From: a virus
Strand: one strand, 5' to 3'
Virus record (IMG/VR): IMGVR_UViG_3300045740_000181
Coordinates: 1 to 22,253 of that record
Length of the DNA: 22,253 bases
The translations under genes were made by a program, and so were the position numbers. Each line of letters begins with the position of its first letter. Positions within the stretch are counted from its first letter, which is position 1. The notes under the pieces were generated by a model. It was not told where the DNA came from. It saw only the letters and a program-made list of their open reading frames with translations, and did no database searches. Positions 1-20,175 of the stretch are shown piece by piece.

Positions 1-1689
1 AGTTGTTGCCGCATCCCCGTTAATCAGGATGTCCAGCCCCGCACTCCATAACGGCTTGCCCTTGGCTTTTAAGATCGTATTGGGGGCATAGGATTCGGAT
101 GCAATTGATTGTGCTGGCGCAAAGCTCCCATCATTGGACTCTGCCGTAGTTTTACCTCTCGGATGCTGGGATTCATTCCACTTTGCAATTGCGTTCAGGA
201 AGGTGTCCCGTTCATGCTTTTCAATTGCCTGCCATGACAAATTTTCATGAAACACTATGCGGTTACTTTCAGCCCACATGCGTAGCATGGCCCGGTGGTC
301 GTGGCTGGACCGTTCCTCATAAGTTGGGACCAGAAGTTCTTTAGCATTGCTCAATATGGCCGGACGGATTTTCCTGTCCAGCACATAACTTTTATCCGGC
401 AACTCCAGAATGTCGTAGGTTCCAGAAGAAGTTAGTAACCCTATACGTCGCACACCTCTTGGGGCCCAGCTACTTAACCACGCCTCAATATCCCCGTAAC
501 TGAATGTCGGGTCTCCTATGGCGACATCGGAGTGGGGGGCCATGTGAGAATGGAATAACGTCGTGCCCTTGGGCACTTTGGCTTCCTTCCACACGTCCTT
601 CCATGATTTAACAGAGCCATCAGGAAGAACGAAGAATGCGTTCTTGGTGGTGTCTCCATGATTACGCCTGTCGGGATTCTCTAACAGCGCGGCTCGTATT
701 CCGGCAATTTCCACATCATCTTTGGGAGCGAATTCACCCCCCTTTTCATCCCCTGCGGGGTGCCGCGGATGCTGGGACTCATCCCACTTTGCAATGGAAT
801 GCAGCCATTCTATTGTGGAGGCCCGGCCTCTTTTTTCTTGTTGCCAGACTTCCCCTTCTTCTTTTTGGATGGCTTGGAATCGCGCGGCATACCGATCCCG
901 AATCCCCCACCATCCGTGGTCGCGTCCTCCCAGCCCTCCATAGTGCTTTTGGTCGTACTCGTTGAGGACTCGTTCGTAAGCGGCGGCTCCTTCTTCTCGG
1001 GAGGTCCAGCTGCCGAAGACTTCTCCGCTGCCACGCCAGAACTTTTTTCCAGTCCCAGCCAGCTTCTGACTCGCTTGATTAACGGCATTGGCCACCTCTT
1101 GTTCCGTACCCGGAGAAAATACGTAAACCTCGACCCCCCGCCCCCGCTGTACCAGCGTATGAAATTCCACGCCGCTCGCCAGCAGGCTGCGATGGGTTTC
1201 TTCCATGGACGTGTCGGTCTCGAACCGATACATTGTATCAGGCCCAGCCGCATCGTTTGTGAAATGAACGACGGCTTTTTGCTGGGCTAACAGGCCCTTC
1301 AGAGCCATGCTGGCCTTGATTGCCTCAGTATCGCCCGTCACATACTGCACAACCAGCGACTGCTCGGCCCCATCAGACCATGCCCCAACCCCCACATGAT
1401 TGACGGTCTTGACCCCGTAATAAGAATCAATCTCGGCAGCAGCCTGCCGCAACAACTGAGTGCGGTCGCTGTGTACCCGCCGCGCGGCTTCGTTGAAATC
1501 CACCTGTTCGTCGATATTAGGGCTGACAAAACCTGCCCCTTTCGGAGCGAATTCCCCCCCTTTTTCTGATCCGGCAGGATGCCGCGGGTGCTGGGACTCG
1601 TCCCATACCGTGTGTAACTTCTTCAGCAGGGTAACTTCAGGTTCCGTGCAATTGACTTGCACTAGGTGTTGTCTTCGATCCGTGCCCAT
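1..1689 (-). CDS. Multi-domain protein with three HPR/GGEF tag motifs and a JAB-like domain (partial)
   Basis: A single open frame of 563 codons runs off the left edge, so the C-terminus is missing. I place the start at ATG 1689, preceded by GAGGGG with an 8-nt spacer and overlapping the upstream gene by 28 nt; GTG 1662, which overlaps the upstream TAG, is the alternative. The protein carries three copies of a WxESQHPR...F(A)P motif, at residues 29-50, 302-323 and 504-526. Between copies 1 and 2 lies about 250 residues of unrecognised sequence. Between copies 2 and 3 is a domain with HSH (380-382) followed by SYGD (397-400), resembling the HxH...SxxD metal site of JAB/MPN domains found in phage head polyproteins, though the gap between the halves is long. 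It lies last in the run that includes the XkdF-like protease. I infer a modular, perhaps proteolysed, capsid-associated protein. No function is proven. The frame is real because the tag motifs stay in frame over 1.5 kb. Confidence 0.8.
   Translation of the reverse strand, partial: MGTDRRQHLVQVNCTEPEVTLLKKLHTVWDESQHPRHPAGSEKGGEFAPKGAGFVSPNIDEQVDFNEAARRVHSDRTQLLRQAAAEIDSYYGVKTVNHVGVGAWSDGAEQSLVVQYVTGDTEAIKASMALKGLLAQQKAVVHFTNDAAGPDTMYRFETDTSMEETHRSLLASGVEFHTLVQRGRGVEVYVFSPGTEQEVANAVNQASQKLAGTGKKFWRGSGEVFGSWTSREEGAAAYERVLNEYDQKHYGGLGGRDHGWWGIRDRYAARFQAIQKEEGEVWQQEKRGRASTIEWLHSIAKWDESQHPRHPAGDEKGGEFAPKDDVEIAGIRAALLENPDRRNHGDTTKNAFFVLPDGSVKSWKDVWKEAKVPKGTTLFHSHMAPHSDVAIGDPTFSYGDIEAWLSSWAPRGVRRIGLLTSSGTYDILELPDKSYVLDRKIRPAILSNAKELLVPTYEERSSHDHRAMLRMWAESNRIVFHENLSWQAIEKHERDTFLNAIAKWNESQHPRGKTTAESNDGSFAPAQSIASESYAPNTILKAKGKPLWSAGLDILINGDAATT
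112..180 (-). repeat. Tag motif copy 3 of the left-end protein
   Basis: Encodes 23 residues starting WNESQHPRGKTTAES and ending GSFAPA. It is preceded by the residues IAK, as in copy 2. It is a mixed form: its first half matches the WDESQHPR type and its GKTTAES section matches the genes at 5048 and 5834. Confidence 0.85.
721..786 (-). repeat. Tag motif copy 2 of the left-end protein
   Basis: Encodes 22 residues starting WDESQHPRHPAGDE and ending KGGEFAPK, internal to the protein (residues 302-323). It is nearly identical to the motifs at 1540-1605 and 7001-7066, and the DNA is similar too, so recent duplication or recombination between copies is possible. Confidence 0.9.
1540..1605 (-). repeat. 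Tag motif copy 1 of the left-end protein
   Basis: Encodes 22 residues starting WDESQHPRHPAGSE and ending KGGEFAPK, close to the N-terminus (residues 29-50). This is the same relative position the motif has in the separate proteins encoded at 6530-7132, 5834-6520 and 5048-5830. Confidence 0.9.
1646..1662 (-). repeat. Inverted-repeat motif GTGCA-N7-TGCAC, copy 1
   Basis: On the minus strand this reads GTGCAAGTCAATTGCAC, with six-base inverted arms (GTGCAA/TTGCAC). It starts at the stop codon of the preceding gene. Related copies lie at 4173-4189, 7701-7713, 12855-12867 and 20245-20261. Confidence 0.55.
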
Positions 1690-2135: not shown

Positions 2136-3389
2136 TTAGTCACCGAATTGCATTGCCTTTTCAAACTTAAAGAACGAAACATCCCCCAGCTCGAACTGCG
2201 TTTTCAGGTGGTCCAACCTTCTGTCAAGTTTAGTAAATACATCTGAATCAAAATAACGATCCCCAAAATAAGCCCCGTCAGAACGCTTGTTCATGTGGGC
2301 CCCTAACAGCCGCTTGGTGTTCGACGCTGCACTATCTAAAAAGGACAGCATGTCTTCCTTGTGCAGGGGAGCCTGCAAAATCTTGTTATCGTGTATTTTG
2401 TCGTAAAAGGTGTTGGAAAACCCTTGATACATGAGCATCCGACCATGATCTATTGGAGTTAAATGACCGTCGTCGGTAATCAGGTAGTTTCTATAGTGCC
2501 GGTCGGGATCCCCAGCCAAATAAGACACTGCCAGCATTTTGGCAACAGAATCCACGCCCGTCTTAACGACTGCCTGCTTCAACTGCTCCTTAGTTGCATT
2601 TTTTACTTCAAACCCCTTGATCCAAGACGACAGGAGGAACTCCCCTTTGTCAGTCTTGAAATACTGCGTGTCAGGAACCTTCACATTCTTGATACCAAGC
2701 TCCGTGAACAACTGAGACGCTAAATGCTCAATTAAAGCTCCGCCACCTGCTCTATCATCAACCTCCTTCAGCATGAATTTTTCGCCATTTCGATCCTTGA
2801 TCACGACGTTTGACCAGTTAATGCCGTGGGCACTGTTTTCCTTTACGTCGAATCCCGCCTCTGTCAACTTTTCAACAAGGGAATTAAACCCCTTTGCATT
2901 GGACAGGCTATCGGAAACCACCCGTCCCACAGCCTCAAAGGAAGGAGACCGACGGCCCCCCTCTGCTACAGGAACCACATACCCCGCTTCAAACCCACTG
3001 CTCAATGGATTCATGGAATGCAGGGACAAGGGAGGTTGGTTACTGGATACGGCCCCGCCGGGAGCCACCGCAGCCGCCGGGGTGCCCATAGCTTGCATGG
3101 CTTCAGCCAAGGGCATGTTGCTCTCGCTCACCCCACGCATCTGATTAAGGGCTTGGTCTATCCGATCTGATAACTTCTGTGCACGCAGACGACGGATCTT
3201 GAACCGGGCCCCCTCCGCATAGGCCCCGACCCACGCCGGATCCGGGGTCATCTTTCCATCGTGATACCCGGATCGCGGGCGCACGAACATCACAGCCCGG
3301 TCTGCCGTAGTGAACCGGCCTATCTCATCGTGATAGGGATTCGAACAAATTACTCGCTCCCGCCTCAGCATCCGGGTCCAAAAACTCAT
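2136..3389 (-). CDS. Kinase-like protein with N-terminal MSFW/NPYHDEIGRF tag
   Basis: 417 residues starting at ATG 3389 (MSFWTRML), which overlaps the HNH stop codon as ATGA; the three extra upstream codons are not needed. Residues 17-30 (NPYHDEIGRFTTAD) resemble the NPxHDExGRF motif seen in phage head-associated proteins and are a distant form of the HPR...GGEF motif in neighbouring genes. The C-terminal half looks like a protein/lipid kinase fold: FMLKEV with K208, a conserved Glu in ALIEHLA (about residue 221), a hinge-like LLSSWIKGFE, a catalytic loop GDPDRHYRN (D296, H298, N301) and an IDHG metal-binding motif (D314). HipA-like and PI3K-like families share this order, and similar domains are known in phage head proteins. 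Substrate unknown. I infer a phage effector that may be packaged with the capsid. Kinase fold fairly likely, activity untested. Confidence 0.75.
   Translation of the reverse strand: MSFWTRMLRRERVICSNPYHDEIGRFTTADRAVMFVRPRSGYHDGKMTPDPAWVGAYAEGARFKIRRLRAQKLSDRIDQALNQMRGVSESNMPLAEAMQAMGTPAAAVAPGGAVSSNQPPLSLHSMNPLSSGFEAGYVVPVAEGGRRSPSFEAVGRVVSDSLSNAKGFNSLVEKLTEAGFDVKENSAHGINWSNVVIKDRNGEKFMLKEVDDRAGGGALIEHLASQLFTELGIKNVKVPDTQYFKTDKGEFLLSSWIKGFEVKNATKEQLKQAVVKTGVDSVAKMLAVSYLAGDPDRHYRNYLITDDGHLTPIDHGRMLMYQGFSNTFYDKIHDNKILQAPLHKEDMLSFLDSAASNTKRLLGAHMNKRSDGAYFGDRYFDSDVFTKLDRRLDHLKTQFELGDVSFFKFEKAMQFGD
3365..3389 (-). repeat. 25-bp direct repeat, downstream copy (start of kinase-like gene)
   Basis: Identical to 3890-3914. 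It encodes the first eight residues (MSFWTRML) of the kinase-like gene. The two copies flank the HNH endonuclease gene exactly and lie 525 bp apart, as expected if the insertion duplicated its target. Confidence 0.9.
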
Positions 3390-3874
3390 AGCGTGCAACC
3401 TTGATGGTGTTGCCGTTTCGCGGACAAGTAAGCAGCGTGCGCCTCTTTAGGCGTCTGATACGTACCGAGATTGCGGGTGCGCCCGTCTATCCGCAGGTAC
3501 GCAACATAAGAATTCCCCCTCGGCTCATGGCACACGCCCAAGTACCCGGTCTTGGAATTCCGCTTCGCCTTCCTGTAGTTCTGAGTATTTTCTTGGTTCG
3601 ACACTTCCCGCAGGTTGGCAATGCGGTTATCCAGCTTGTCGCCATTAATATGGTCAAGCTGGTCCGCTGGCCAATCACCTGTAACCATGAACCACGCCAG
3701 TCGATGAGCCAAGTACCCCCGCTTAAGAATGCGAACGCTTAGATACCCGCGACAGTGGGGTGTGCCTGCCACGGACCCGGCAGCTTGTCTGCCCTGCCCC
3801 ACGCGCCACCGAAGCACGCCCGTATTTGGGTCATAGCTTAGTAGCTCTCGCACTCTGTCTACCGACAGGCCCAT
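3386..3874 (-). CDS. HNH homing-type endonuclease with AP2 DNA-binding domain
   Basis: 162 residues. The N-terminal region (LLSYDPNTGVLRWR, then YLAHRLAWFMVTGDWPADQLDH) followed by INGDKLDNRIANLREVSNQEN is the HNH_3-type nuclease domain seen in free-standing phage homing endonucleases, with the D-H-I-N-G-D...N core at about residues 74-91. Residues from about 108 to the end (SKTGYLGVCHEPRGNSYVAYL...LGTYQTPKEAHAAY) form an AP2-like DNA-binding domain, the usual partner. Such enzymes cut specific DNA and spread their own gene to related phages. A 25-bp direct repeat flanks it (3365-3389 and 3890-3914), and its stop overlaps the ATG of the kinase-like gene as ATGA, so the insertion left its neighbours intact. 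The start at ATG 3874 lies one base after a short remnant frame. Confidence is high for the family; the target site is inferred. Confidence 0.92.
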   Translation of the reverse strand: MGLSVDRVRELLSYDPNTGVLRWRVGQGRQAAGSVAGTPHCRGYLSVRILKRGYLAHRLAWFMVTGDWPADQLDHINGDKLDNRIANLREVSNQENTQNYRKAKRNSKTGYLGVCHEPRGNSYVAYLRIDGRTRNLGTYQTPKEAHAAYLSAKRQHHQGCTL

Positions 3875-4189: not shown

Positions 4190-5002
4190 TCAGCACGCCT
4201 TCTTCTTCCCTTTGCGCCGCTTCTCCATCCATTCTTTTTGCACTTCGGAATAAATGTTTTCGGATTTCATCAAGGCATCCAACAGGCTGAAACGGTGGTT
4301 GTGGCCCTCCACGGTATCAGTCGCGGTCCCCTTGGAAATTTGATGGGAATGCCCGCCAACACTATCGGTCTCGCCCCCCGTAAATTGCCCGGACTCATCA
4401 AAATCCAGAGCGAACACATGAACATGGTGGGGATCCGTGGTATTGGCCGCGGTCTTGCCGAAAACCATGCCATCGTCCGGAATTTCCAACTCCACGGTGC
4501 GCTTTTCCCGCCGACCCGTGCCGTACATGCTGAAACCGTTGATTTCACCCCGCTTGATCAGGCTCCACGTCTCTTTGCTGGGGATATGGACCCCCAGTAC
4601 CCATGATCCTTCAAGAAATTCCGGATCGCCCTTCCGGGCAATAAAAGACTCGACCACATACGAACCATTGCGCTTCTGGCTGTGCTCGGTGTCGATGGCG
4701 CTCACGGCTCCTTTCTTGATAAAGCCATGAGCAATTCGCTCAATTTCCTCGGGGGTCATGAAGTCCCCCTGCGAGTCGGGCATGTAAGGAACGTAGACCT
4801 CGCCATAAACCAACTGCTTCTCGTTGTCGAATTTGGTGAAAGTTATATGGGCTTCCGATTTATTGACCCCGCGATATTGCCGGTAGCAGACTGCCGCCCG
4901 CTGGGCGTTATCGGGGAATTTTTCGTTTAGGTGGGCGTTGCCCATGCAGCGGGAAATGAAATCACGCTCAGACTCATCAGCATCTGGAGTGGGTAATGGC
5001 AT
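4190..5002 (-). CDS. XkdF-like phage prohead serine protease
   Basis: 270 residues from ATG 5002, with GAGGAAA upstream. Residues 1-45 hold a short domain seen at the start of phage head proteins (ESERDFISRCMGN...FPDNAQRAAVC). The core that follows (ITFTKFDNEKQLVYGEVYVP, DSQGDFMTPEEIERIAHGF) matches the XkdF-type putative serine protease family. Candidate catalytic residues are H107 (IDTEHSQ) and S158 (NGFSMYGTG), in the usual order for prohead proteases. The C-terminus is rich in histidine (DPHHVHVF, GGHSHQISKGT, EGHNHRFS), a pattern known from other phage structural proteins, and ends in a lysine-rich tail. These enzymes process scaffold and head proteins during capsid maturation, so the tagged proteins encoded around it are plausible substrates or cargo. 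No major capsid protein is seen in the window. Confidence 0.85.
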   Translation of the reverse strand: MPLPTPDADESERDFISRCMGNAHLNEKFPDNAQRAAVCYRQYRGVNKSEAHITFTKFDNEKQLVYGEVYVPYMPDSQGDFMTPEEIERIAHGFIKKGAVSAIDTEHSQKRNGSYVVESFIARKGDPEFLEGSWVLGVHIPSKETWSLIKRGEINGFSMYGTGRREKRTVELEIPDDGMVFGKTAANTTDPHHVHVFALDFDESGQFTGGETDSVGGHSHQISKGTATDTVEGHNHRFSLLDALMKSENIYSEVQKEWMEKRRKGKKKAC

Positions 5003-5047: not shown

Positions 5048-5830
5048 TCAAGACTTGATTTTAAAATGCCACAGACCTTTTGAACCTTTACCACCAATTG
5101 CATTTCTTCCCATAGGGGTAATAGCCCCCCGCTTATCCAGCAACCCGCGTGCAATTAGTGCCTCTTTGGCAGAGAGATAATCTGCTGCTGCGATGCCTGT
5201 CTCTTTCATTGCCTCAGACATCCGGAAATCCTTAATCCCTCCATAAGAGGATTTCAGTCCAGCCGTAGCGTGCAACACGATTTCTTCAAATTGAGACACG
5301 TTGGTGGAAGATTTCTTGGGGAGTACACGGGCTGCATCAGCAGGATGCACATACCCTGTCATCCCCATGTCCTTGCCCATAAATATATGATGCTCAACTA
5401 AAGCCATACCCGGCTGAAGCACCACGGTCTTACCTTCAATCCCATTATCGAATGGGCCAAAATGTCCCCCTTCTCTACCGGGAGCAAAATGATCACGCAA
5501 CTCTAAGCGCCCCCCATCCAATGTAGTAAGACTGTAGGTAGACACAGTGCCACCGCTTGCCATGGTGTCACTAAGAGTCACCTTATCTCGCACGGCTATC
5601 TCATATTTTTTCTTACCTTGACGAGACAACCAACTGGGAGCCTGATCTGGAGTCAAATGTATGGTATCCCCAACCTTGTACCCACTCTCAGGATTGGTCG
5701 GCTTTCCTCCCGCCCCGCCACCTGCTGGCTTAAATGACCCCCCGCGTGATTCAGGAGTCGTTTTTCCACGCGGATGCAATTCTTCTGACCATGCCTTGAT
5801 TACGTGCGCGTAACGTAGAAAGAAACTCAT
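5048..5830 (-). CDS. Tagged protein: MSFF start, HPR/GGSF motif, C-terminal winged-helix-like region
   Basis: 260 residues from ATG 5830. The first 36 residues, MSFFLRYAHVIKAWSEELHPR and onward to GGSFKPA, are nearly the same as in the gene just upstream, whereas the rest is unrelated. Motif copy at 5723-5791 (residues 14-36). The middle (about 47-170) contains VGDTIHLTPDQAPSWL and VEHHIFMGKDMGMTGYVHP, the latter resembling a small domain found in phage and plasmid proteins. The last 80 residues (FEEIVLHAT...MSEAMKETGIAAADYLSAK...GLLDKRGAITPMG) read like a winged helix. This looks like domain shuffling behind a constant N-terminal tag. The pairing of a tag with a DNA-binding-like domain would suit a protein delivered with, or bound to, phage DNA; that is inference. 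Confidence 0.82.
   Translation of the reverse strand: MSFFLRYAHVIKAWSEELHPRGKTTPESRGGSFKPAGGGAGGKPTNPESGYKVGDTIHLTPDQAPSWLSRQGKKKYEIAVRDKVTLSDTMASGGTVSTYSLTTLDGGRLELRDHFAPGREGGHFGPFDNGIEGKTVVLQPGMALVEHHIFMGKDMGMTGYVHPADAARVLPKKSSTNVSQFEEIVLHATAGLKSSYGGIKDFRMSEAMKETGIAAADYLSAKEALIARGLLDKRGAITPMGRNAIGGKGSKGLWHFKIKS
5723..5791 (-). repeat. Tag motif in the 260-residue protein
   Basis: Encodes 23 residues starting WSEELHPRGKTTPES and ending GGSFKPA. It differs from the copy at 6413-6481 at only two residues. Confidence 0.9.
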
Positions 5831-5833
5831 AAT

Positions 5834-6520
5834 TTAATCCCACCATAAACGTAGAACAGGCTCATCGAAAACCTTCAGGTCTTCCCAAGAATCAGGCCTT
5901 ACAGGATCGGGCTTACGTGGCTTCTCATAATCCTTCACGCGATACCCTGCATCATGCAAATTAACCTCGTCTGCTTTAAGCGCCTTTAATTTCTGCAAAT
6001 GTTGTAATTGCTCCACTGGCCCAGTGATAAACATTGCAGGTGACCCACTTCTCCCCATCCAGATTTTGACATCTGGAGCAACCTCCAAAATTTTGTTTGT
6101 CACCTTTTTAGGGTTAAACTCGTTGTATTGGCCTATTGCTTTTGGCAGCACATGAACAGCCTCAAGAGCACTTAAGGCGGATGACGCAATAAAATTCAGG
6201 TTACGCTGTGCATAGGCTTCTTCAGTCGGCGTCTGACCTCCCGGTCTAGCATCTGCATACGCTTGAGAGACTTCTTCCCCAACCTTAAGAGCGTTTGCTG
6301 AAATTTCTGCCTGAGTTTTATTTGGTGACTTTCCACTCCGCTTCCGGTTGTCCACGTATCCTGCGGGAGTACGCCCCGCATAAATGTCATCACTACCAGC
6401 ACCAGAAGCATGTGCCGGTTTGAAAGAGCCTCCCCGCGATTCGGGGGAGGTCTTACCGCGAGGATGAAGTTCTTCCCGCCATTCTTTAATAATGTCGGCA
6501 TACCGTAGAAAGAAACTCAT
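5834..6520 (-). CDS. Tagged protein: MSFF start, HPR/GGSF motif, unknown C-terminal domain
   Basis: 228 residues from ATG 6520, with GAGGAA upstream. It opens with MSFFLRYADIIKEWREELHPR and GGSFKPA, the same tag as the next gene. After a flexible stretch (residues 37-75, rich in Gly, Ser, Asp and Lys) comes a mainly helical region (AEISANALKVGEEVSQAYADA; NLNFIASSALSALEAVHVLP) and a section with KIWMGRSGSPAMFITGPVEQ. The C-terminus is rich in proline and aspartate and ends in LRLWWD. I do not recognise a family for the main domain. It is separated by 3 bases from the following gene and 9 from the preceding one, so the three MSFF genes form one transcription unit upstream of the protease. Confidence 0.82.
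   Translation of the reverse strand: MSFFLRYADIIKEWREELHPRGKTSPESRGGSFKPAHASGAGSDDIYAGRTPAGYVDNRKRSGKSPNKTQAEISANALKVGEEVSQAYADARPGGQTPTEEAYAQRNLNFIASSALSALEAVHVLPKAIGQYNEFNPKKVTNKILEVAPDVKIWMGRSGSPAMFITGPVEQLQHLQKLKALKADEVNLHDAGYRVKDYEKPRKPDPVRPDSWEDLKVFDEPVLRLWWD
6413..6481 (-). repeat. Tag motif in the 228-residue protein
   Basis: Encodes 23 residues starting WREELHPRGKTSPES and ending GGSFKPA, preceded by DIIKE. Confidence 0.9.
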
Positions 6521-6529
6521 GTTGGTTCC

Positions 6530-7132
6530 TCAGTGTCCATAGCCAAATGCGGTTTGATGTTTGGGCTTGCCATCCCACAAATGGGCATTGGCATAACTGG
6601 CTATCCTGACTCGTTCTCCGCTCTTGATCCGCTTCACCATGGTATGCCCCTTGCCCTTCAGGTCCTTGGGGTCTGGCGTCACGTTGTCACTGCCCGCTCC
6701 AGCAGAAACCACAGACTGCGCCATGGGGCGGATCAGGGCAGACTTGCCAGAGGGAGTCAGGCCCACCACTTCGTAGAAATCCACGTTGGTTTGGTCATAG
6801 CCCCAACTGGTGTAGAGGATGGCACCGGGTTCGATCTTGTCGCGGACTTTGTACCAAGACGTGTCTTGCTCGTTGCCCCCAGCCCTCTCAGCGATATTTG
6901 TTCTCCCAAGGGACCCAGCCGGATACACGATGTCTCTTTCCGATGGCTGCCTCGCGTTTGGCCAAGGCTTCGGACCTTTGTATTCCGTTGCTTTGTAGGG
7001 CTTGGGGGCAAACTCCCCGCCCTTGTCGGATCCGGCAGGGTGGCGCGGGTGCTGGGATTCATCCCATCCCTCGCGCAGTTGCCTGTAAGTCTTGTATCCC
7101 TTGATCAGCGCCCAGCGTTGAAAAAAGCTCAT
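6530..7132 (-). CDS. Tagged protein: MSFF start, HPR/GGEF motif, small conserved domain
   Basis: 200 residues. ATG 7132 is chosen because GCAGGAG lies upstream; a longer frame to 7150 adds six residues that would include the ribosome binding site. The N-terminus MSFFQRWALIKGYKTYRQLREG leads into WDESQHPRHPAGSD...KGGEFAPK (residues 23-44), almost identical to motifs 1 and 2 of the left-end protein. The central part has GAILYTSWGYDQTNVDFYEVV followed by GKSALIRPM, a small beta-rich domain I have seen in phage and plasmid hypothetical proteins. The C-terminus (VKRIKSGERVRIASYANAHLWDG) is basic. It is the first tagged gene in transcription order. Function unknown; grouping with the other tagged proteins is secure. 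Confidence 0.82.
   Translation of the reverse strand: MSFFQRWALIKGYKTYRQLREGWDESQHPRHPAGSDKGGEFAPKPYKATEYKGPKPWPNARQPSERDIVYPAGSLGRTNIAERAGGNEQDTSWYKVRDKIEPGAILYTSWGYDQTNVDFYEVVGLTPSGKSALIRPMAQSVVSAGAGSDNVTPDPKDLKGKGHTMVKRIKSGERVRIASYANAHLWDGKPKHQTAFGYGH
7001..7066 (-). repeat. Tag motif in the 200-residue protein
   Basis: Encodes 22 residues starting WDESQHPRHPAGSD and ending KGGEFAPK; one residue different from copy 1 of the left-end protein. Confidence 0.9.
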
Positions 7133-7162
7133 GAAAAGGGACTCCTGCAAGACATGCCATGC

Positions 7163-7215: not shown

Positions 7216-7638
7216 TCACACTGGACGTTCTGGCAGTGAAACCTGCTCTGTTCCCCATGGCGGGCCACTGAAATAATGCTTACTGAATGCTGTCAGTAAG
7301 GTTTCCCAGTCGGAGCCGCCAATTTTTGCCAAAGCACGTAATTTATTGATGGCCCGCTCGCCCGCCAGCCACACTCCGTGGTCGTCACTCATGGCGTAAT
7401 ACCAATCATGTGCGTGCAGCTGATCCCAGTAATCGGCCAGCGTCATGGGACGCATAGCCTTGACCGCATAGGTGGCAGTCTTGCCATTCACCACGTAGGC
7501 TGGGGGGGCTGGGTAAGCAAAGGAAAACCAGTCCTTGAAAGCCGCGACGGCCCCCGCCTCATCCTCAGCCTGCACGGCGTGCCATGTCTGATACGTGCCG
7601 TAGTGATGGATCACGAATTCGATAACGAAATTCTTCAT
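7216..7638 (-). CDS. Conserved hypothetical protein of the accessory type
   Basis: 140 residues from ATG 7638, with AAGGAGGGC seven bases upstream and its own promoter (7667-7695). The N-terminal half (VIEFVIHHYGTYQTWHAVQAEDEAGAVAAFKDW) looks like a small alpha/beta domain. The second half, DWYYAMSDDHGVWLAGE and HYFSGPPWGTEQ, matches a pattern I recall from short phage and plasmid proteins with no assigned role. The promoter and leader are nearly the same as those of the genes at 9793-10701 and 11439-11654, so these genes probably share expression timing. No membrane or signal segment. Confidence 0.82.
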   Translation of the reverse strand: MKNFVIEFVIHHYGTYQTWHAVQAEDEAGAVAAFKDWFSFAYPAPPAYVVNGKTATYAVKAMRPMTLADYWDQLHAHDWYYAMSDDHGVWLAGERAINKLRALAKIGGSDWETLLTAFSKHYFSGPPWGTEQVSLPERPV

Positions 7639-7666
7639 CTGCTGCCCTCCTTGAAATCTCAGCTAC

Positions 7667-7695
7667 AGGATACCCCCTCCTGTGGTGTTTGGCAA
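7667..7695 (-). promoter_or_regulatory. Sigma70-like promoter for the 7216-7638 gene
   Basis: Minus strand TTGCCA (7695-7690), 17-nt spacer, TATCCT (7672-7667), then a TCAAGGAGGGC leader. Nearly identical in the spacer and leader to the promoters at 10731-10759 and 11683-11711. Confidence 0.7.
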
Positions 7696-7700
7696 ATCAT

Positions 7701-7713
7701 GTGCAATTGACTT
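7701..7713 (-). repeat. AATTGCAC motif, copy 3
   Basis: Minus strand AAGTCAATTGCAC, starting at the last base of the TGA stop. It shares the right arm with copies 1 and 2 but not the left arm. It also lies just upstream of the -35 box at 7690-7695. Confidence 0.45.
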
Positions 7714-8009: not shown

Positions 8010-9209
8010 TCACCCCTCGGGATCCTCGGTTTCTTCGTCTTCGTCCACCCCCTCCACGTCCGGAGTCACCCCCCTTGCCTGACTGGACAACAGACCCCCC
8101 AGACCCAGCCATGCCAGCAGAGACGCCCATACCCGCCGGGACGGGGCAGGCAAGGGCTGCCCTTCGGGTTCCACGACCGCACGAACCGCTTGGTCGATAG
8201 CCCCGCCCAGCTCAGTCGGTTCCGCCGGGGCGGGCTGTGCCAGCTCAGAAACAGCCGGGACAGTGGCCGGGGGCAAATCCGGCGTGATCCGGAATAACTC
8301 CTGTGTCATGAGCACCGGATCGTCATGACCAAATAAGGCCGCATGAGCCATGGCCACACGATCCGTCGCATCGGATGGATGAACCTGCGCCACTTCATCC
8401 GTCTTGGTCAGGATACAGCGGCATAAAAAATGAAATGGGGGCAGGAGCAATCCCTGCTCTATCAAGTCATCCGTGCTGTAGAGTTTCAGCTGCGCCACAC
8501 TAATTTTGTCTTGCGCGTAAAACGGCGCAATGGATTGCAATTCCGACGGATTCTGCACATCCAGAATCATGTTTGCATGAGCAAACCCAGCCTCCACCGG
8601 GAACACCTTGCCATCCAACTCTTTGCAGACCGGGCACGTCCTGTCGTCCAGCACCGCATCAATCCGGTAATGTTCCAGTCCACGTTCAACTGCCTTGGCC
8701 AGAAACCCAAAAGCTGACAGTCGCGACACCTGCAAACTGGCCGCCAAGGCAAAATAGGATTTGCCCTTATGGGTCAGCTTAACCCGCAGATAGCTACGAT
8801 CATCCTCCAGCTTTTGAACCTCTTCACCACGCTTCTGCAACAAGGCATGGCCAGCCTGTCGCAACGCATCCGTCGCATTCCCTCCTACCATGTACCCCAG
8901 TTGCTGCATGGACCTGTCAATCATCAACCAATCTGAATCACGCAAGCGCAACTTGCGAGTATTGGATAGGCGAGACTGTCCCAGAAAAAAGCTGGAAATT
9001 GACAGGGTTTCTAAGGCTTTTTTATTCTTCTCAATGACAGCAATCGTATCCAGCTGCTCGACCAGTCGATGTGCAGTCTCAAAATCATTACAGGCTACTG
9101 CATGATCTACCGCTTGCAGTAACGATGACGACTCCCGCGCCCATGTTCTATTGAGCATGTCAGACACCGCTTCTTCGAGGTCTAAAAAAGCCTCATGCCT
9201 GATACTCAT
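8010..9209 (-). CDS. Phage head morphogenesis protein (Mu gpF / SPP1 gp7-like)
   Basis: 399 residues from ATG 9209, with GGAG upstream. The diagnostic region is DAVLDDRTCPVCKELDGKVF (C192, C195) followed about 60 residues later by PPFHFLCRCIL (H260, C263, C265), the paired metal-binding-like motif of the minor head protein family (PF04233). These proteins sit at or near the portal in the prohead and are needed for head assembly. The first 180 residues are helical. The C-terminal third is proline- and alanine-rich, with a hydrophobic stretch (VWASLLAWLGLGGLLSS, about 359-375) and a very acidic end. That hydrophobic segment is unusual for the family. The gene lies 3.7 kb from the portal gene, its usual neighbour, because the accessory island sits between them. 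An intrinsic terminator lies directly upstream, so its promoter is unclear. Confidence 0.88.
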   Translation of the reverse strand: MSIRHEAFLDLEEAVSDMLNRTWARESSSLLQAVDHAVACNDFETAHRLVEQLDTIAVIEKNKKALETLSISSFFLGQSRLSNTRKLRLRDSDWLMIDRSMQQLGYMVGGNATDALRQAGHALLQKRGEEVQKLEDDRSYLRVKLTHKGKSYFALAASLQVSRLSAFGFLAKAVERGLEHYRIDAVLDDRTCPVCKELDGKVFPVEAGFAHANMILDVQNPSELQSIAPFYAQDKISVAQLKLYSTDDLIEQGLLLPPFHFLCRCILTKTDEVAQVHPSDATDRVAMAHAALFGHDDPVLMTQELFRITPDLPPATVPAVSELAQPAPAEPTELGGAIDQAVRAVVEPEGQPLPAPSRRVWASLLAWLGLGGLLSSQARGVTPDVEGVDEDEETEDPEG

Positions 9210-9648: not shown

Positions 9649-9758
9649 GTTCCCGCCTTGAACCGCAGGGGTTCAAACATCCCCAGAACCGCCAGCGCGG
9701 GAACCGTCGCCAGTACCGTTGCCAGCACCATCGCTAGAACCTGAAAGAAACCCAACAT
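9645..9758 (-). CDS. 37-residue predicted membrane protein
   Basis: Starts at ATG 9758 after TTGACTCAAGGAGGGC, a leader shared with the gene at 11116-11421, and ends in an ATGA overlap with the DUF2958-like gene. Residues 1-27 (MLGFFQVLAMVLATVLATVP and ALAVLGM) form one hydrophobic membrane-spanning helix, with a short basic tail (FEPLRFKAG). A longer frame upstream to 9860 exists but overlaps the DUF6011-like gene and lacks a ribosome binding site. The strong leader and coupling argue that it is translated. Small phage membrane proteins can be holin-like, exclusion or toxin peptides; nothing here picks one. Confidence 0.72.
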   Translation of the reverse strand: MLGFFQVLAMVLATVLATVPALAVLGMFEPLRFKAGT

Positions 9759-9792
9759 TTTTTGCCCTCCTTGAGTCAAGGACCAGTTGCCG

Positions 9793-10701: not shown

Positions 10702-10730
10702 CCTTTTGCCCTCCTTGAAACCTCAGCTAC

Positions 10731-10759
10731 AGGGTACTCCATTCTGTGGCGTTTGGCAA
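10731..10759 (-). promoter_or_regulatory. Sigma70-like promoter for the DUF6011-like gene
   Basis: Minus strand TTGCCA (10759-10754), 17-nt spacer, TACCCT (10736-10731). From the -35 to CTGAGG the sequence is nearly identical to the promoter at 11683-11711. Confidence 0.72.
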
Positions 10760-10760
10760 G

Positions 10761-11099
10761 TTACATTGAATGGTATCTCTCGGTCGCCGGATCGCAGCAG
10801 CCGCCCTTCTGGTCCCGACTGATCGGGAACTCCCCCGCTGCCGGGTTCAGGATATTGTGGGTCATGACCGGCTCTTTGCCCCAGACGTTGGCGACCCAGT
10901 TGACCGCATTGCCGAATCCGAGCTTCATCTGCTTGAACTCACCATTAACCGTGATCTGCCACCACTTGGTAGGCTTGATCCCCACAAACTCCCGCTTCAC
11001 GTCCACCACGTCCCCCCACCACTTCAACTGGTAGTGGCCAGCAGCAACCTTCTGGAAGTACCCCATCATCCCGTAGACGTTTTTACCGAACTTCGCCAT
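10761..11099 (-). CDS. Hypothetical accessory protein
   Basis: 112 residues from ATG 11099, preceded by GGGAGGGC. The open frame continues upstream to 11366 but that part overlaps the previous gene in another frame, so the longer version is rejected. Aromatic-rich N-terminal half (YGMMGYFQKVAAGHYQLKWW, GIKPTKWWQITVNGEFKQ), with a GFGNAVNWVANVWG segment in the middle; the C-terminus has GGCCDPATERYH. I do not recognise a family. Seventeen bases separate it from the upstream gene, and it is followed directly by the promoter at 10731-10759. Confidence 0.78.
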   Translation of the reverse strand: MAKFGKNVYGMMGYFQKVAAGHYQLKWWGDVVDVKREFVGIKPTKWWQITVNGEFKQMKLGFGNAVNWVANVWGKEPVMTHNILNPAAGEFPISRDQKGGCCDPATERYHSM

Positions 11100-11115
11100 C
11101 ACTTGCCCTCCCTGA

Positions 11116-11421
11116 TTACCAAACCGCTTCAAAGCCGCAGCTTTTGACCATGAACCCAACACCGTTGACTTCAAGAACATCGCCCACTGAAACGCTGTGC
11201 ATCCGCGCATACCGGGTGATTTTTTCTTCCGGACCGATGTTGCCGACCTCGAAAGCGTAGTCGAGGTCCGCTGTGTCGATGTCCGCCACATGCGAGTAAT
11301 ACTGCTTGCCGGGGAACTCGTTGCACATGGCACTGGAATAAGCGGCGTAAGCCGTGACCTTCTCATTCTTGTTGACAGCCGCCACGTCCGCGTCCGACAA
11401 CTGAATCTGGAACACCTTCAT
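11116..11421 (-). CDS. Accessory protein of a plasmid/phage-type family (MHSVSVGDVL motif)
   Basis: 101 residues from ATG 11421 after TTGACTCAAGGAGGGC; a longer frame to 11526 overlaps the previous gene and is rejected. The sequence MKVFQIQLSDADVAAVN, then YYSHVADIDTADLDYAFEVG, then ITRYARMHSVSVGDVLEV and FMVKSCGFEAV matches a family I recall from proteobacterial plasmids and integrative elements, where the HSxSVGD...SCGFE segment is the most constant part. No function is known. Located in the middle of the island between two unrelated small genes. Confidence 0.8.
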   Translation of the reverse strand: MKVFQIQLSDADVAAVNKNEKVTAYAAYSSAMCNEFPGKQYYSHVADIDTADLDYAFEVGNIGPEEKITRYARMHSVSVGDVLEVNGVGFMVKSCGFEAVW

Positions 11422-11438
11422 CACATGCCCTCCTTGAG

Positions 11439-11654
11439 TCAAAGACCCGCCGCCCGCCGCTCTTGGTTTACCTCGTTCATCAGTTTCTTGACCATGGCTT
11501 TCGCCTGACTGGACATCGGCCACCACTCACCGGCAACAGCCGTCTTGTCCGTGAACATCCAAACGCACTTCCACCGAACGTATCCACCGTTTGGGCCGTC
11601 TTTGAAGGACAACACCGCGTCGTTGACTTTGGGGGACAACCACAACTTCTTCAC
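11439..11654 (-). CDS. Small hypothetical accessory protein
   Basis: 71 residues from GTG 11654, with AAGGAGGGC upstream and a clear promoter at 11683-11711. It begins MKKLWLSPKVNDAVLSF and contains GGYVRWKCVWMFTDKTAV and EWWPMSSQAKAMVKKLM, with a basic C-terminus (NQERRAAG). Tryptophan-rich (W5, W28, W32, W44, W45 approximately). No family recognised. The TGA stop runs straight into the TCAAGGAGGGC leader of the following gene, so the two are co-transcribed. Confidence 0.76.
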   Translation of the reverse strand: MKKLWLSPKVNDAVLSFKDGPNGGYVRWKCVWMFTDKTAVAGEWWPMSSQAKAMVKKLMNEVNQERRAAGL

Positions 11655-11682
11655 CTTTCGCCCTCCTTGATTCCTCAGCTAC

Positions 11683-11711
11683 AGGGTACTCCATTCTGTG
11701 GCGTTTGGCAA
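11683..11711 (-). promoter_or_regulatory. Sigma70-like promoter inside the island
   Basis: Minus strand TTGCCA (11711-11706), 17-nt spacer, TACCCT (11688-11683). It lies immediately at the end of the zinc-ribbon gene (stop at 11713). Confidence 0.72.
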
Positions 11712-11712
11712 A

Positions 11713-11946
11713 TTACACGATCTTGACAATATCCCCCAGCCGGACCACCTTCCATTCCTCGGGGATCCCGACCCCTTCGGGCGGGGCCTCTAGGCAGTCA
11801 TGGCAGTTGGCGTCCATGGGGCGTTTCCATGAGCACCCCGCGCACCGGCTGTAGACCGCACCCCAGTGATTGGTCCCGATCAGGGACTCATGCCCGCAGT
11901 GACGGCACTTGTAACGCTTGACCGAATACCTGCCTGTGGTCTTCAT
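11713..11946 (-). CDS. Small triple-CxxC zinc-finger protein
   Basis: 77 residues from ATG 11946, overlapping the upstream stop as ATGA. Three CxxC pairs, C14/C17, C35/C38 and C48/C51, in the contexts YKCRHCGHE, SRCAGCSWK and NCHDCLE, imply a zinc-ribbon fold. The first six residues, MKTTGR, and 20 bp of DNA around the start are identical to those of the gene immediately upstream, although the rest of the two proteins is unrelated. Likely nucleic-acid or protein binding, by analogy with other ribbons; function unknown. Confidence 0.8.
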   Translation of the reverse strand: MKTTGRYSVKRYKCRHCGHESLIGTNHWGAVYSRCAGCSWKRPMDANCHDCLEAPPEGVGIPEEWKVVRLGDIVKIV

Positions 11947-12854: not shown

Positions 12855-12867
12855 GTGCAATTGAAAT
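12855..12867 (-). repeat. AATTGCAC motif, copy 4
   Basis: Minus strand ATTTCAATTGCAC, starting at the last base of the portal TGA stop. Same position relative to a stop codon as copies 1 to 3. Confidence 0.45.
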
Positions 12868-14879
12868 CAAGACCCCGCAGCCCCCTCGGAAGCGGGGGGG
12901 TCAAACTGCTTGGCCGCCGCAGCATCCCCCGCACAGGCCAACAGGTCAGCTACCCCATCCGGATCGTACTGGGCATGTGGGACCATCCGCAGCCCCACAT
13001 ACGCATTGAACAGTTTCCGAGTTGTCGGATTAAACGATTCAATCGTGCGCTTCATGATCCGCACGGACGAATCCTCAAAGGCTTTTGCCCCAGTCAAAAA
13101 ATCTGTCCAATCCGTCGCCAGATTCACTAGAAAACCATCACCCTCCGCCTTGGCAACCTGCGGTTTCGGAGGCTGCCCCGGAGTCCGGGCCTCACCCGGC
13201 GGGGGTACATCAAATTGACCGTACTCCTGCTGTGCGGGCTCCTGTCCCGGAGAGCCGCCCTCCATGCCGGGCGGCAACATCGGTGGCGGCGGTTCCTCAA
13301 ACGTCAGATTCAGGCCCGCAATCTCATTGACCTCATCAACAAATTCTTCCTTGTTGGTAAAGTCCTTAACCAACCCCAACGCACTCAATTGCACATTTAC
13401 ATCGTGCACCGTTAGAGGCAAAGAACGAAAGAAATACTCCGGGGCCAGTTCCTGCATAACAGTGGCATTGATGATTTCATCAAACCCCAATCGCTCAGGC
13501 TTGAAAACCTGAGCCTCACTTGTCAGGTAAGAGGCGTATGCCGTAGCGAAGGAATAGTCATTGGCGTGCCCGGTAAACAGAGGCGGCAGTCTAAAACTGG
13601 CTCGTACCCGCGAAGCACATTTGTCATCGTAGTTTTCAAACAGGGCATCGGCTTGCCTGTCCGAACCAAACCTCTCCACCATGACTTTTACGTTTCCAGC
13701 TGAAGACAGGTCACCCGCGGTACTGAAAACCTCGCTTATGACCCCTCGCACCTTGGATTTTGCCGCCCCGCCAAGATACTTGTTCAATTGGTCGCGGGAT
13801 CCAGAAGTGAGCTGCCCGCCTAAAATAAACATGATAACTGGAGGCAGCCCACCATGCCGGAAATACTCCAGATTCAATTCTTCTGCTTCCCGGCTACCCA
13901 GCACCGACGGCACATTGTTTACCCAACGTGGCACTCCATACGGGGTCACAATATCCGGTTTCAGCCGGAACCAAATTACCTCGTTGGCAAACTCGACAGG
14001 AGTACCATCGGCCCCAACTTTGTCGGGCTTGCCTTCGCGCTTCTCCACTCCTGTGGGTATGCTCCCAACCTTATCAGTCACGTTTTCTGGCTTGTCTCCC
14101 GGTTTAGCCTTGGCAGGCTTAACGGTCGGTGGCGGCGCTTTCTTTGGGACCTCATCAATCCATTCCCCCGTCAAAGCATTCAAATGCCGGGAACTATCGT
14201 ACTCACGAAAATACCGTACTTGTGACCCGACAATCTGCACAAACCGTCGTTCGCGCGTATAGAGTCTCACAGTTACCTGTTTACCATTCCGTGTAAGGGT
14301 CTTGTCCACCGCAACAGGATCGTCCAGCCGTACTACACGAGTCAGATTCGCCTCAAGACGGCCCAGCAACGTAATGCTTCCGGTGTTATCCCGGATAACC
14401 TCCATATACGCATTGCCTGTGGTTTCCAGATCGCGCCGCAGCTCACGACGCACAGTTATGAAACTCTTGCCGGGATATACGTTGTCGAAGAAATCGAACA
14501 TATACCCAATCTCTTGCTTTTTTTCTTCGTCAGACTTGGGCTTCCCGTCCCGACGCTCAAAATCATACCCCGTACCATCTACATTGATTTCCATGGCATC
14601 CACCAGCGGAGCCAGCGTATTGTTCTGATACACCAGCCCACTCAATACCACTGGATCATAGGTCGGAGTGATAATCTGACCCTTACGCTCCTTGGGGAGT
14701 TTTGCCCATGGATCGTCCTCGATAGTTAGCGCCTTGCTTTCCACCATCATTTTTTCGGCTTTGGAAAGCTGACGGTCATCGCTCTTGATAACCGTGGAAA
14801 TAACCCCCAGCGCATTATCTGTATCAGTCCCTTTCTGTTCGAGACCAATACGCTGGCGAGTCTTATCAGACATGGACAT
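12867..14879 (-). CDS. Phage portal protein (PBSX-type)
   Basis: 670 residues from ATG 14879; a second ATG two codons on is possible. Portal proteins form the dodecameric channel at one capsid vertex through which DNA is packaged and ejected. Diagnostic segments: ITVRRELRRDLETTGNAYME (142-160), IWFRLKPDIVTPYGVPRW (302-319) and LEYFRHGGLPPVIMFILGG (337-355), typical of PBSX/HK97-type portals. It is longer than the usual 450-550 residues. The extra length comes from a Pro/Lys-rich insert (about 247-292) between the two parts of the core, and from a C-terminal extension with a Pro/Gly-rich linker (about 535-580) and a final helical domain (FLTGAKAFEDSSVRIMKRTI...) of unknown role. It lies directly after the polymerase gene, an uncommon arrangement; the terminase that usually precedes it is not in the window. 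Confidence 0.93.
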   Translation of the reverse strand: MSMSDKTRQRIGLEQKGTDTDNALGVISTVIKSDDRQLSKAEKMMVESKALTIEDDPWAKLPKERKGQIITPTYDPVVLSGLVYQNNTLAPLVDAMEINVDGTGYDFERRDGKPKSDEEKKQEIGYMFDFFDNVYPGKSFITVRRELRRDLETTGNAYMEVIRDNTGSITLLGRLEANLTRVVRLDDPVAVDKTLTRNGKQVTVRLYTRERRFVQIVGSQVRYFREYDSSRHLNALTGEWIDEVPKKAPPPTVKPAKAKPGDKPENVTDKVGSIPTGVEKREGKPDKVGADGTPVEFANEVIWFRLKPDIVTPYGVPRWVNNVPSVLGSREAEELNLEYFRHGGLPPVIMFILGGQLTSGSRDQLNKYLGGAAKSKVRGVISEVFSTAGDLSSAGNVKVMVERFGSDRQADALFENYDDKCASRVRASFRLPPLFTGHANDYSFATAYASYLTSEAQVFKPERLGFDEIINATVMQELAPEYFFRSLPLTVHDVNVQLSALGLVKDFTNKEEFVDEVNEIAGLNLTFEEPPPPMLPPGMEGGSPGQEPAQQEYGQFDVPPPGEARTPGQPPKPQVAKAEGDGFLVNLATDWTDFLTGAKAFEDSSVRIMKRTIESFNPTTRKLFNAYVGLRMVPHAQYDPDGVADLLACAGDAAAAKQFDPPASEGAAGS

Positions 14880-18394: not shown

Positions 18395-19159
18395 TTATTC
18401 CCAGATATTCCAATGATTGTTTACTGCTACGATCCTGTCTTCATACTTACTACCAGCCGACGAAAACCCTTTCGTTGAATTGAAGGACGAATAACTGCCG
18501 CCCTGTTTAGTCGCAGCAACTTTTTCAATACCAAAATGAGTATGCAAAAAATTCACCTGCGCCACAGATTCAATCGCATGTTTGCAATACTCTTTTCTAA
18601 CCCACTCAGCGGCCTTCAAATCGTCTGTAACCTGTCTCACTAACGCAGCGAGCACCATACCAGTACGTCCGTGTCCGCCCAAACAACCTACATGAACCCG
18701 CTTACCCAGAACCAACTGCTGTTGCAGCCATGTAATCATTTCCTTGAAATTAGATATGTCTGACGGCACAGACATATCAGTTATCGGAAAATAAACCTCA
18801 ATAGGTCCTTGACTGTTTACCTTTGACCAAGGATAAACCTCAGCTCGCTTCATGCCGTAATCCAACCCAACGTAAATATCAAACCCCTTTAACGGCTTCA
18901 CACAGGAACCACCAGCAAAAACTCCGCCGCCAAGGTGCAACGGAGCATGTTTCTCGTAACAAGGAACATACGGAGTCAAGTAACTCTGGGGTGTGGCGAT
19001 GCTGCCTATTTTAGTAGTGCCTATGTACGTCACACTAGACGAAGGCGCACAAAAATCTACGGGATCAGAAGACGCAAATCCAAAAATGGCAGCGGACTTG
19101 TTCCACTTTTCCTTTTTTTCCTTCTTCTTCTTTTTTCCCGACTTTAATGACTTACTCAT
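18395..19159 (-). CDS. Tyrosine/dual-specificity phosphatase-like protein
   Basis: 254 residues from ATG 19159, overlapping the upstream stop as ATGA; a longer frame to 19339 overlaps the preceding gene and is rejected. The loop RVHVGCLGGHGRTGMVLAAL contains the CX5R signature of cysteine phosphatases (C159, R165), with D128 in FPITDMSVPSD as candidate general acid about 30 residues before, the expected spacing. The usual VHC is VGC here, a form known in phage and bacterial members. The N-terminus is strongly basic (MSKSLKSGKKKKKEKKEKWN), perhaps for nucleic-acid or membrane contact. It should remove phosphate from a phosphotyrosine, phosphoserine/threonine or other phospho-substrate; the target is unknown. 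It is co-transcribed with the conserved hypothetical upstream. The kinase-like gene of this window lies 15 kb away. Confidence 0.85.
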   Translation of the reverse strand: MSKSLKSGKKKKKEKKEKWNKSAAIFGFASSDPVDFCAPSSSVTYIGTTKIGSIATPQSYLTPYVPCYEKHAPLHLGGGVFAGGSCVKPLKGFDIYVGLDYGMKRAEVYPWSKVNSQGPIEVYFPITDMSVPSDISNFKEMITWLQQQLVLGKRVHVGCLGGHGRTGMVLAALVRQVTDDLKAAEWVRKEYCKHAIESVAQVNFLHTHFGIEKVAATKQGGSYSSFNSTKGFSSAGSKYEDRIVAVNNHWNIWE

Positions 19160-20175
19160 TTTCTCACCACGTTGGTTTTTACCACGACCCCAATGTAAGG
19201 GGCTAGGTCGGTGTATATCTGTCCCTTTATTTTCGGCTTCACCGTGCCCACAGTTTTCTTTTTCTTCTTCGGCTTGAGCAAAGAATTTACTGAAGGCTTT
19301 CCAGAACCATGCACCCCGAGTTTTTTGAACTGATCCCATTTAACTTCCCCCCGACCAAAATCAGGAAACACTTTGCGGACTTCTTTCAGGAAAGCAACAT
19401 GCTTAACGTCTATAGAAGTGCTGCCTAACGTGCCCACCAGCTGCGGAATAAACCCGGCCCGCTGCACGTCCAAAATTTTCTTGATTTCCCCAGAATCAAA
19501 ATTCGTAAAGAGCATACCCTTATTGAATATGGGACCGTTGTTATGGCAGAGAGTAAAAGCCGTATCCAGTAATACCTCAGCACTGATTTCTCCATACACA
19601 AAAGAACTCAGCACCTTGGCAATATCAGCCCACGCCTGACCACCATAACCATGATTAAAGCCACCACTGGCAAATGAAAACCGCAGCATGTCAACGTATG
19701 ACCCCACGGTAGAATCAGGCGTAAAATTACTCAGTAACGACAATACAGATTTAGAGGATTCGCCGCGCAATGAGACCAAGAAATTAAGATTGTTGGCCCC
19801 GTACCGTTCCTCTATAAGACTCCGGGAAGACTCGGACCAATGCTTATGCCGTGACTCGCGAGTGCAGATCAACAGCATGTAATAGAACATACGCAATGCA
19901 CCGGGACGAATCACATTGTGATAATGATCCACAATGAATTCCAACGAATCCAACGGCTGTTCCAGATACACAGCCTGTCTTACCTGAGCATAGGCAGCAT
20001 TGGCCAAATAGAACGTAAGGGCCTCCCTCTCTGGCTTTTCCTGCTGGGGAAACTGATGACTCTGGAAATACGCCTCTAGCTCAGAACGCCCCGCAACAAT
20101 TTTTGCCATCGGGACGTGCGCGAAACTCTGTGCCCGCAGAGCGGGACGACGACAATGCTGTAATAGTGTTGCCAC
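19156..20175 (-). CDS. Conserved phage hypothetical with lysine-rich tail
   Basis: 339 residues if started at GTG 20175, which follows AAGGAGGGC; the open frame extends to GTG 20196 but that lies before the ribosome binding site. The start is not certain, since the spacing is only about 4 bases; ATG at residue 22 is another option. The best-conserved part looks like GGFNHGYGGQAWADIAKVLS followed by FVYGEISAEVLLDTAFTLCH and NNGPIFNKGMLF, a pattern I recall from phage proteins with no known role. Before it are helical stretches (ALTFYLANAAYAQVRQAVYL). The tail is lysine-rich (LLKPKKKKKTVGTVKPKIKG). It heads a two-gene unit with the phosphatase, with its own TTGACA promoter and the shared leader, so the pair likely acts together. 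Confidence 0.8.
   Translation of the reverse strand: MATLLQHCRRPALRAQSFAHVPMAKIVAGRSELEAYFQSHQFPQQEKPEREALTFYLANAAYAQVRQAVYLEQPLDSLEFIVDHYHNVIRPGALRMFYYMLLICTRESRHKHWSESSRSLIEERYGANNLNFLVSLRGESSKSVLSLLSNFTPDSTVGSYVDMLRFSFASGGFNHGYGGQAWADIAKVLSSFVYGEISAEVLLDTAFTLCHNNGPIFNKGMLFTNFDSGEIKKILDVQRAGFIPQLVGTLGSTSIDVKHVAFLKEVRKVFPDFGRGEVKWDQFKKLGVHGSGKPSVNSLLKPKKKKKTVGTVKPKIKGQIYTDLAPYIGVVVKTNVVRK

Follow-up and report, generated by a model that had tools for sequence, protein, structure and literature searches.

The window analysed here is an entire virus record of IMG/VR (IMGVR_UViG_3300045740_000181), 22,253 bases long. A minus-strand gene lies at its beginning and is open at the edge: the first-pass annotation had it continuing past the window, and the frame (1..1689) indeed contains no stop up to the window's first base. 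It had also placed copies of a motif, hereafter called the tag, at residues 29-50, 302-323 and 504-526, which we confirmed in the translated ORF, with HPR at aa 34, 307 and 509 (Table 1). Tags 1 and 2 are identical at 20 of 22 residues (D30-G51 versus D303-D324) and belong to a first flavour (HPRHPAG..KGGEFAPK), also found in gene A; tag 3, NESQHPRGKTTAESNDGSFAPA, is of a second flavour (HPRGKTTAESNDGSFAPA), common to genes B and C. The three copies scored 60, 60 and 34 bits with a tag HMM built with these copies, and the tag DNA was the top direct-repeat family of the window (77-81% over 69 nt). A chance origin is excluded. Whole-protein searches found no relatives of the three-tag protein as a whole. 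It contains a conserved uncharacterised domain (segment 1) and an unrelated segment.

Table 1. Positions of the three-tag gene, its parts and the neighbouring genes in the window
Feature	Position (nt)	Strand	Details
Three-tag protein ORF	1..1689	minus	563 aa shown; ATG start; stop-free to window base 1
Tag 3, aa 504-526 (W504-P526)	112..180	minus	WNESQHPRGKTTAESNDGSFAPA; second flavour
Segment 2, aa 326-500	190..714	minus	JAB/MPN-like by motif only (HSH-x14-SYGD)
Tag 2, aa 302-323 (W302-K323)	721..786	minus	WDESQHPRHPAGDEKGGEFAPK
Segment 1, aa 53-262	904..1533	minus	undescribed domain; SPN..GAWxDGAExS..QKAV..HTL..GEFIGS
Tag 1, aa 29-50 (W29-K50)	1540..1605	minus	WDESQHPRHPAGSEKGGEFAPK
PI3/4-kinase-like gene	2136..3398	minus	PF00454, E 1.3e-7
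XkdF-type prohead protease (Peptidase_S78_2)	4190..5002	minus	PF14550, E 1.1e-28
Gene C, free-standing, single tag	5048..5830 (tag 5723-5791)	minus	tag profile
Gene B, free-standing, single tag	5834..6520 (tag 6413-6481)	minus	tag profile
Gene A, free-standing, single tag	6530..7150 (tag 7001-7066)	minus	tag found; body matches phrog_37844 (function unknown)
MuF / SPP1 gp7-like minor head protein	8010..9209	minus	PF04233, E 2.1e-7
Portal protein	12867..14879	minus	phrog_12, E 2.4e-20

Three free-standing genes near the three-tag gene (A, B and C) carry one tag each. The N-terminal parts of genes B and C, with the leader MSFFLRYA..IK.W, are identical at 31 of 40 residues, and their bodies are unrelated. 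Near the N-terminus of the PI3/4-kinase-like gene we found a degenerate tag, NPYHDEIGRFTTAD, of a form that also heads a stand-alone segment-1 gene in another contig (L129). The tagged genes, portal, MuF and XkdF protease form one same-strand cluster. An HNH_3/AP2 homing-endonuclease-like gene (3386-3874, minus) adjoins the kinase-like gene. The minus strand further encodes a dual-specificity-phosphatase-like protein (18395-19339; match to the polymorphic-toxin phosphatase family Tc-R-P, E 2e-6) and a PPDK-like PEP-utilising mobile domain (21350-22252, cut by the right edge), which is unusual for a phage. A 64-nt element occurs in copies 80-94% identical at 7638-7701, 10702-10765 and 11654-11717, with shorter copies at 9744-9774, 11085-11115 and 11407-11437; it lies directly upstream of several small minus-strand genes and is likely a shared promoter or leader.

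We compared the codons used in near-identical tags of the window (19-20 of 22 residues). The same codon was used at 25-55% of the identical residues, the share expected at synonymous saturation being 37%; the tags of genes B and C, for instance, share 20 of 22 residues and 5 of 20 codons. Tag 2, which is internal, matches the tag of gene A at 19 of 22 residues with synonymous sites saturated, and is thus conserved as well as the tag of a free-standing gene. The codons have diverged while the peptide was kept; therefore the copies are old and selection acts on the peptide, including internal tag 2. A recent tandem duplication was also rejected as the source of the tags. With the peptide conserved and synonymous sites close to saturation, the tags are functional peptides.

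Segment 1 was not matched by any family of Pfam, PHROGs or NCBIfam, a profile search of its domain against the PDB gave nothing credible, and its single-sequence AlphaFold model was poor (pLDDT 41-42). Segment 2 gave neither a profile match nor a homologue in profile and sequence searches, its single-sequence model was likewise too poor to use (pLDDT 41), and its putative JAB-like identity comes from the motif listed in Table 1. The segment-1 domain (about 200 aa, FVSPNV..GAWxDGAENS..QKAV..HTLVP..GEFIGS) is common in very large proteins of environmental phages, up to 2270 aa.

Relatives of segment 1 were sought independently of the tag, by scanning viral contigs for the motif GxWxDGAExS. This yielded 68 further ORFs with the domain, and an alignment of 16 rows contained 16 invariant columns. 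A strict tag started 15-50 aa upstream of the domain in 22 of 58 non-redundant proteins, whereas placing it at random within those proteins gave an expectation of 1.9 and, over 2000 trials, never more than 8; with a broader tag definition and a distance of up to 60 aa, the count rose to 32 of 58, against 3.9 expected (maximum 9). The architectures were varied. The domain follows portal and tag in L104; in L107 the order is head protease (DUF2213), tag, segment-1 domain, tag, further sequence and tag; in L067 it is tag, a JAB-like HNHP..SMGD segment, tag, segment-1 domain and a C-module, and in L109 the C-module precedes the segment-1 domain. L072 has the segment-1 domain, a tag and a PI3/4-kinase, so that what are two genes in the window are one protein there. 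The first-pass annotation had counted a lack of homologues with separate segments against its idea of a fusion; such homologues do exist for segment 1, because we found both a stand-alone gene (L129:4433-5194, 253 aa, headed by a degenerate tag) and tag-headed modules in many larger proteins.

A degenerate DNA pattern located the tag in 24 stretches, which come from about 20 contigs of viruses and a single contig of a bacterial MAG. The tag profile identified 43 tagged ORFs in the window and about 20 other viral contigs, 13 of them with at least two tags; the sequence set was retrieved via the tag, and the multi-tag rates are therefore not population estimates. The longest chains, counted by eye, had about 8 tags in L044 (1948 aa) and 7 in L045. 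The modules that Pfam identified in tagged proteins were effector-like (ART exotoxin, zeta toxin, PI3/4-kinase, topoisomerase IB, ParB-like nuclease, cysteine dioxygenase (CDO), GNAT, InPase, LPD1 and, weakly, Tox-REase-2) or belonged to head proteins (portal, MuF and protease). Many single-tag genes had the tag near the N-terminus, often behind a short hydrophobic leader, and in some stand-alone proteins it was already at residue 3. L029:4924-7770 is a Mu-type portal protein followed by a tag and a C-terminal topoisomerase IB. In L107:4126-8301, the head-protease domain DUF2213 is fused to a three-tag chain, and the tagged protein L040:10891-13455 showed a weak, sub-cut-off match to the Mu I-like protease (Mu-like_Pro). 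The tag was practically missing from sequenced isolate phages and from 294 genomes of one phylum, and so was the segment-1 domain.

Comparison of close relatives showed modules changing place at tags. Two adjacent modules of 565-575 nt, one GNAT-like and one with HExxH, are present in L044 and L045 with 94-96% DNA identity and in reversed order, and the junctions of the swap fall in tag DNA. An ART-like module (named from its sequence; without a Pfam match) closes a long ORF in L045, whereas in L044 it has an ORF of its own that overlaps the preceding stop by 4 bases. L010 and L046 are 93.7% identical upstream, diverge shortly before the first post-portal tag and become identical again where the following tag starts the next module. 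Of their first inter-tag segments, one measures 62 aa; the other has about 290 aa and matches M91 weakly. The claim that the three-tag protein was made from formerly separate tagged units is thus supported by modules that changed order or were replaced at tags, or that are joined in one relative and separate in the other. Such an origin of the gene is well supported, and the pattern general.

That exchange junctions lie in tag DNA, and that Gly and Pro abound in the tag's C-terminal half, would also suit tags that are flexible linkers and blocks of homology for recombination, with no role in binding or processing. However, the H-P-R, G and F columns are fixed, the aromatic residue is conserved, the peptide is kept though codons differ, and the residues preceding the tag are phage-specific (see below), all of which is unexpected of a linker or a DNA block. 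We rejected a pure linker reading, and we regard the combined linker and homology role as quite improbable.

The six residues before the W/F of the tag resembled each other within a phage (mean BLOSUM62 0.66) and differed between phages (-0.58), a contrast that was reached in 0 of 2000 label permutations; with random 6-mers from the same proteins, the within-between difference was 0.02 +/- 0.10. Examples are xxAAG in G006, KKxE in G002 and IAK, IKA or IKE in the phage of the window. Such residues fit recognition by a phage-specific protease or capsid/head partner, but the within-genome likeness could instead reflect shared descent or copying of tags. We searched G002 and G006 by motif, no capsid protein being identified in them; the pre-tag motif turned up at tags and nowhere else, which gives no visible sign that the tags have a protease site in common with a major capsid protein or with further proteins of the head.

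That the pre-tag residues are phage-specific speaks for the proposal that the tags are cleavage sites of the prohead protease, in which case the protein would be a true polyprotein, cut at every tag during head maturation, with cutting as the main role of the tag. An XkdF-type protease gene is indeed present in the same cluster, and a protease is found in cis with tagged modules in L107 (DUF2213) and probably in L040. Tags also stand between portal or MuF and the enzymes appended to them, where targeting is already assured, and internal tag 2 has not decayed. The proposal accounts less easily for the stand-alone proteins with a tag at residue 3, where nothing lies upstream to be released, for the absence of the pre-tag motif from other proteins of two phages, and for the different protease families of tagged phages. 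Of 23 tagged records, only 3 had XkdF; others had Mu I-like proteases, and many fragments showed no protease. This made us reject, as a general rule, that the tag tracks the XkdF protease. Cleavage as the main role is a real possibility, though we lean slightly against it, and we judge in much the same way the narrower suggestion that an XkdF-type prohead protease may also cut at tags, freeing the modules. By analogy with the capsid-targeting sequence (CTS) of T4, a signal that is first used for loading and then clipped would agree with the majority of the facts.

Alternatively, the tags could be capsid-targeting signals only, as in T4 and P1, with internal copies that merely travel with their modules and a fused protein that acts uncut. 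The N-terminal position of the tag in many stand-alone proteins, often after a hydrophobic leader, and the clustering of tagged genes with portal and MuF would be in keeping with this, as is the finding that the first 30 residues of P1 DarB suffice for capsid targeting (PMC9024508). Redundant internal copies, however, would be expected to decay, contrary to what was observed for tag 2, and portal and MuF proteins carry tags without needing such a signal. We consider targeting as the sole function rather unlikely.

On balance, we favour the view that the three-tag gene probably encodes a virion-associated effector of the polyvalent type, made of tag-headed modules joined end to end, with the tag as a head-loading signal. 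Each unit consists of a short hydrophobic or amphipathic stretch, a W/F-(D/N)-x-x-x-HPR-x-P-x-G-x(3)-GGEF-AP tag and an effector domain, and units of these kinds also exist as stand-alone genes. Units would be joined probably via recombination in or near tag DNA. The tag and the residues before it may act as a portable signal by which proteins encoded next to portal, MuF and protease are loaded into the head; the three-tag protein would be enclosed in the procapsid and its modules would act in the newly infected cell. Since in other phages such modules stand alone, are reordered or are attached to the portal, head or protease protein, the tag marks a plug-in unit, which is probably carried inside the virus particle. 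We suggest tentatively, and with more doubt than conviction, that a phage's prohead protease or a capsid partner recognises the phage-specific residues ahead of the peptide, and that this one element both loads and frees whatever effector follows it; the proteins would then be true cleaved effector polyproteins.

For want of any shared sequence, injected phage proteins are difficult to recognise. A tag that recurs at the head of each module offers a handle for spotting candidate virion-carried effectors from sequence alone, including toxins, ARTs, kinases, nucleases and possibly anti-defence enzymes, and the loading and release of internal proteins would become testable via one short peptide. 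Effector genes are here seen rebuilt as cassettes between close relatives. If the element does both load and free effectors, phages could string injected effectors together, change their order, separate them or trade them, and could attach them to portal, MuF or protease proteins.

The open-licence literature searched (on polyvalent proteins, MuF proteins and capsid targeting), as far as its text was covered, does not describe the tag, which may be described beyond it; a text search for the HPR tag in Iyer et al. 2017 (PMC5512222) likewise found nothing. MuF toxins and capsid-targeting sequences are partial parallels (PMC5576092, PMC9503650, PMC9024508, PMC5694885). The loading signals of T4 internal proteins, the CTS of P1 DarB and the propeptides of SPN3US ejection proteins are likewise short N-terminal signals for entry into the head, which in T4 are removed by the prohead protease (PMC5694885, PMC9024508). 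The N-terminal position of the tag in many single-tag genes fits a targeting sequence of the T4/P1 type, and a prohead protease is encoded near the three-tag gene; the known signals, however, are single, N-terminal and of other sequence, whereas the tag is repeated inside the protein. MuF polymorphic toxins (Jamet et al. 2017, PMC5576092) are alike in having toxin domains on MuF proteins whose gene adjoins the portal gene. They are described as MuF plus toxin domains, in contrast with the tag-headed modules found here, which occur several to a protein and are not tied to MuF: the three-tag protein has no MuF domain, MuF being encoded by a separate gene.

Polyvalent proteins of phages and conjugative elements (Iyer et al. 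2017, PMC5512222) resemble the tagged relatives in carrying many effector-like domains per polypeptide, in being encoded beside virion genes, in their LPD1, InPase and ART-PolyVal domains and in their fusions to MuF and portal. In the window, the genes that set the context for phage-type polyvalent proteins (portal, MuF and XkdF) lie in the same strand cluster. Pfam identified no named polyvalent-associated domain in the 563 aa of the three-tag protein; LPD1, InPase or ART-PolyVal are present in its relatives, and tagged relatives clearly have at least two distinct effector-like domains per polypeptide. Together with the portal and MuF fusions, the domain types and the argument made for polyvalent proteins (PMC5512222), this gene context suggests that the tagged units are virion-carried effectors. 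Internal metallopeptidase domains were proposed to split polyvalent proteins (PMC5512222), whereas here the modules are marked by a short repeated peptide. Thus, as far as these sources go, the closest known kind is that of polyvalent proteins and MuF- or portal-fused effectors, and the repeated boundary tag is a new feature.
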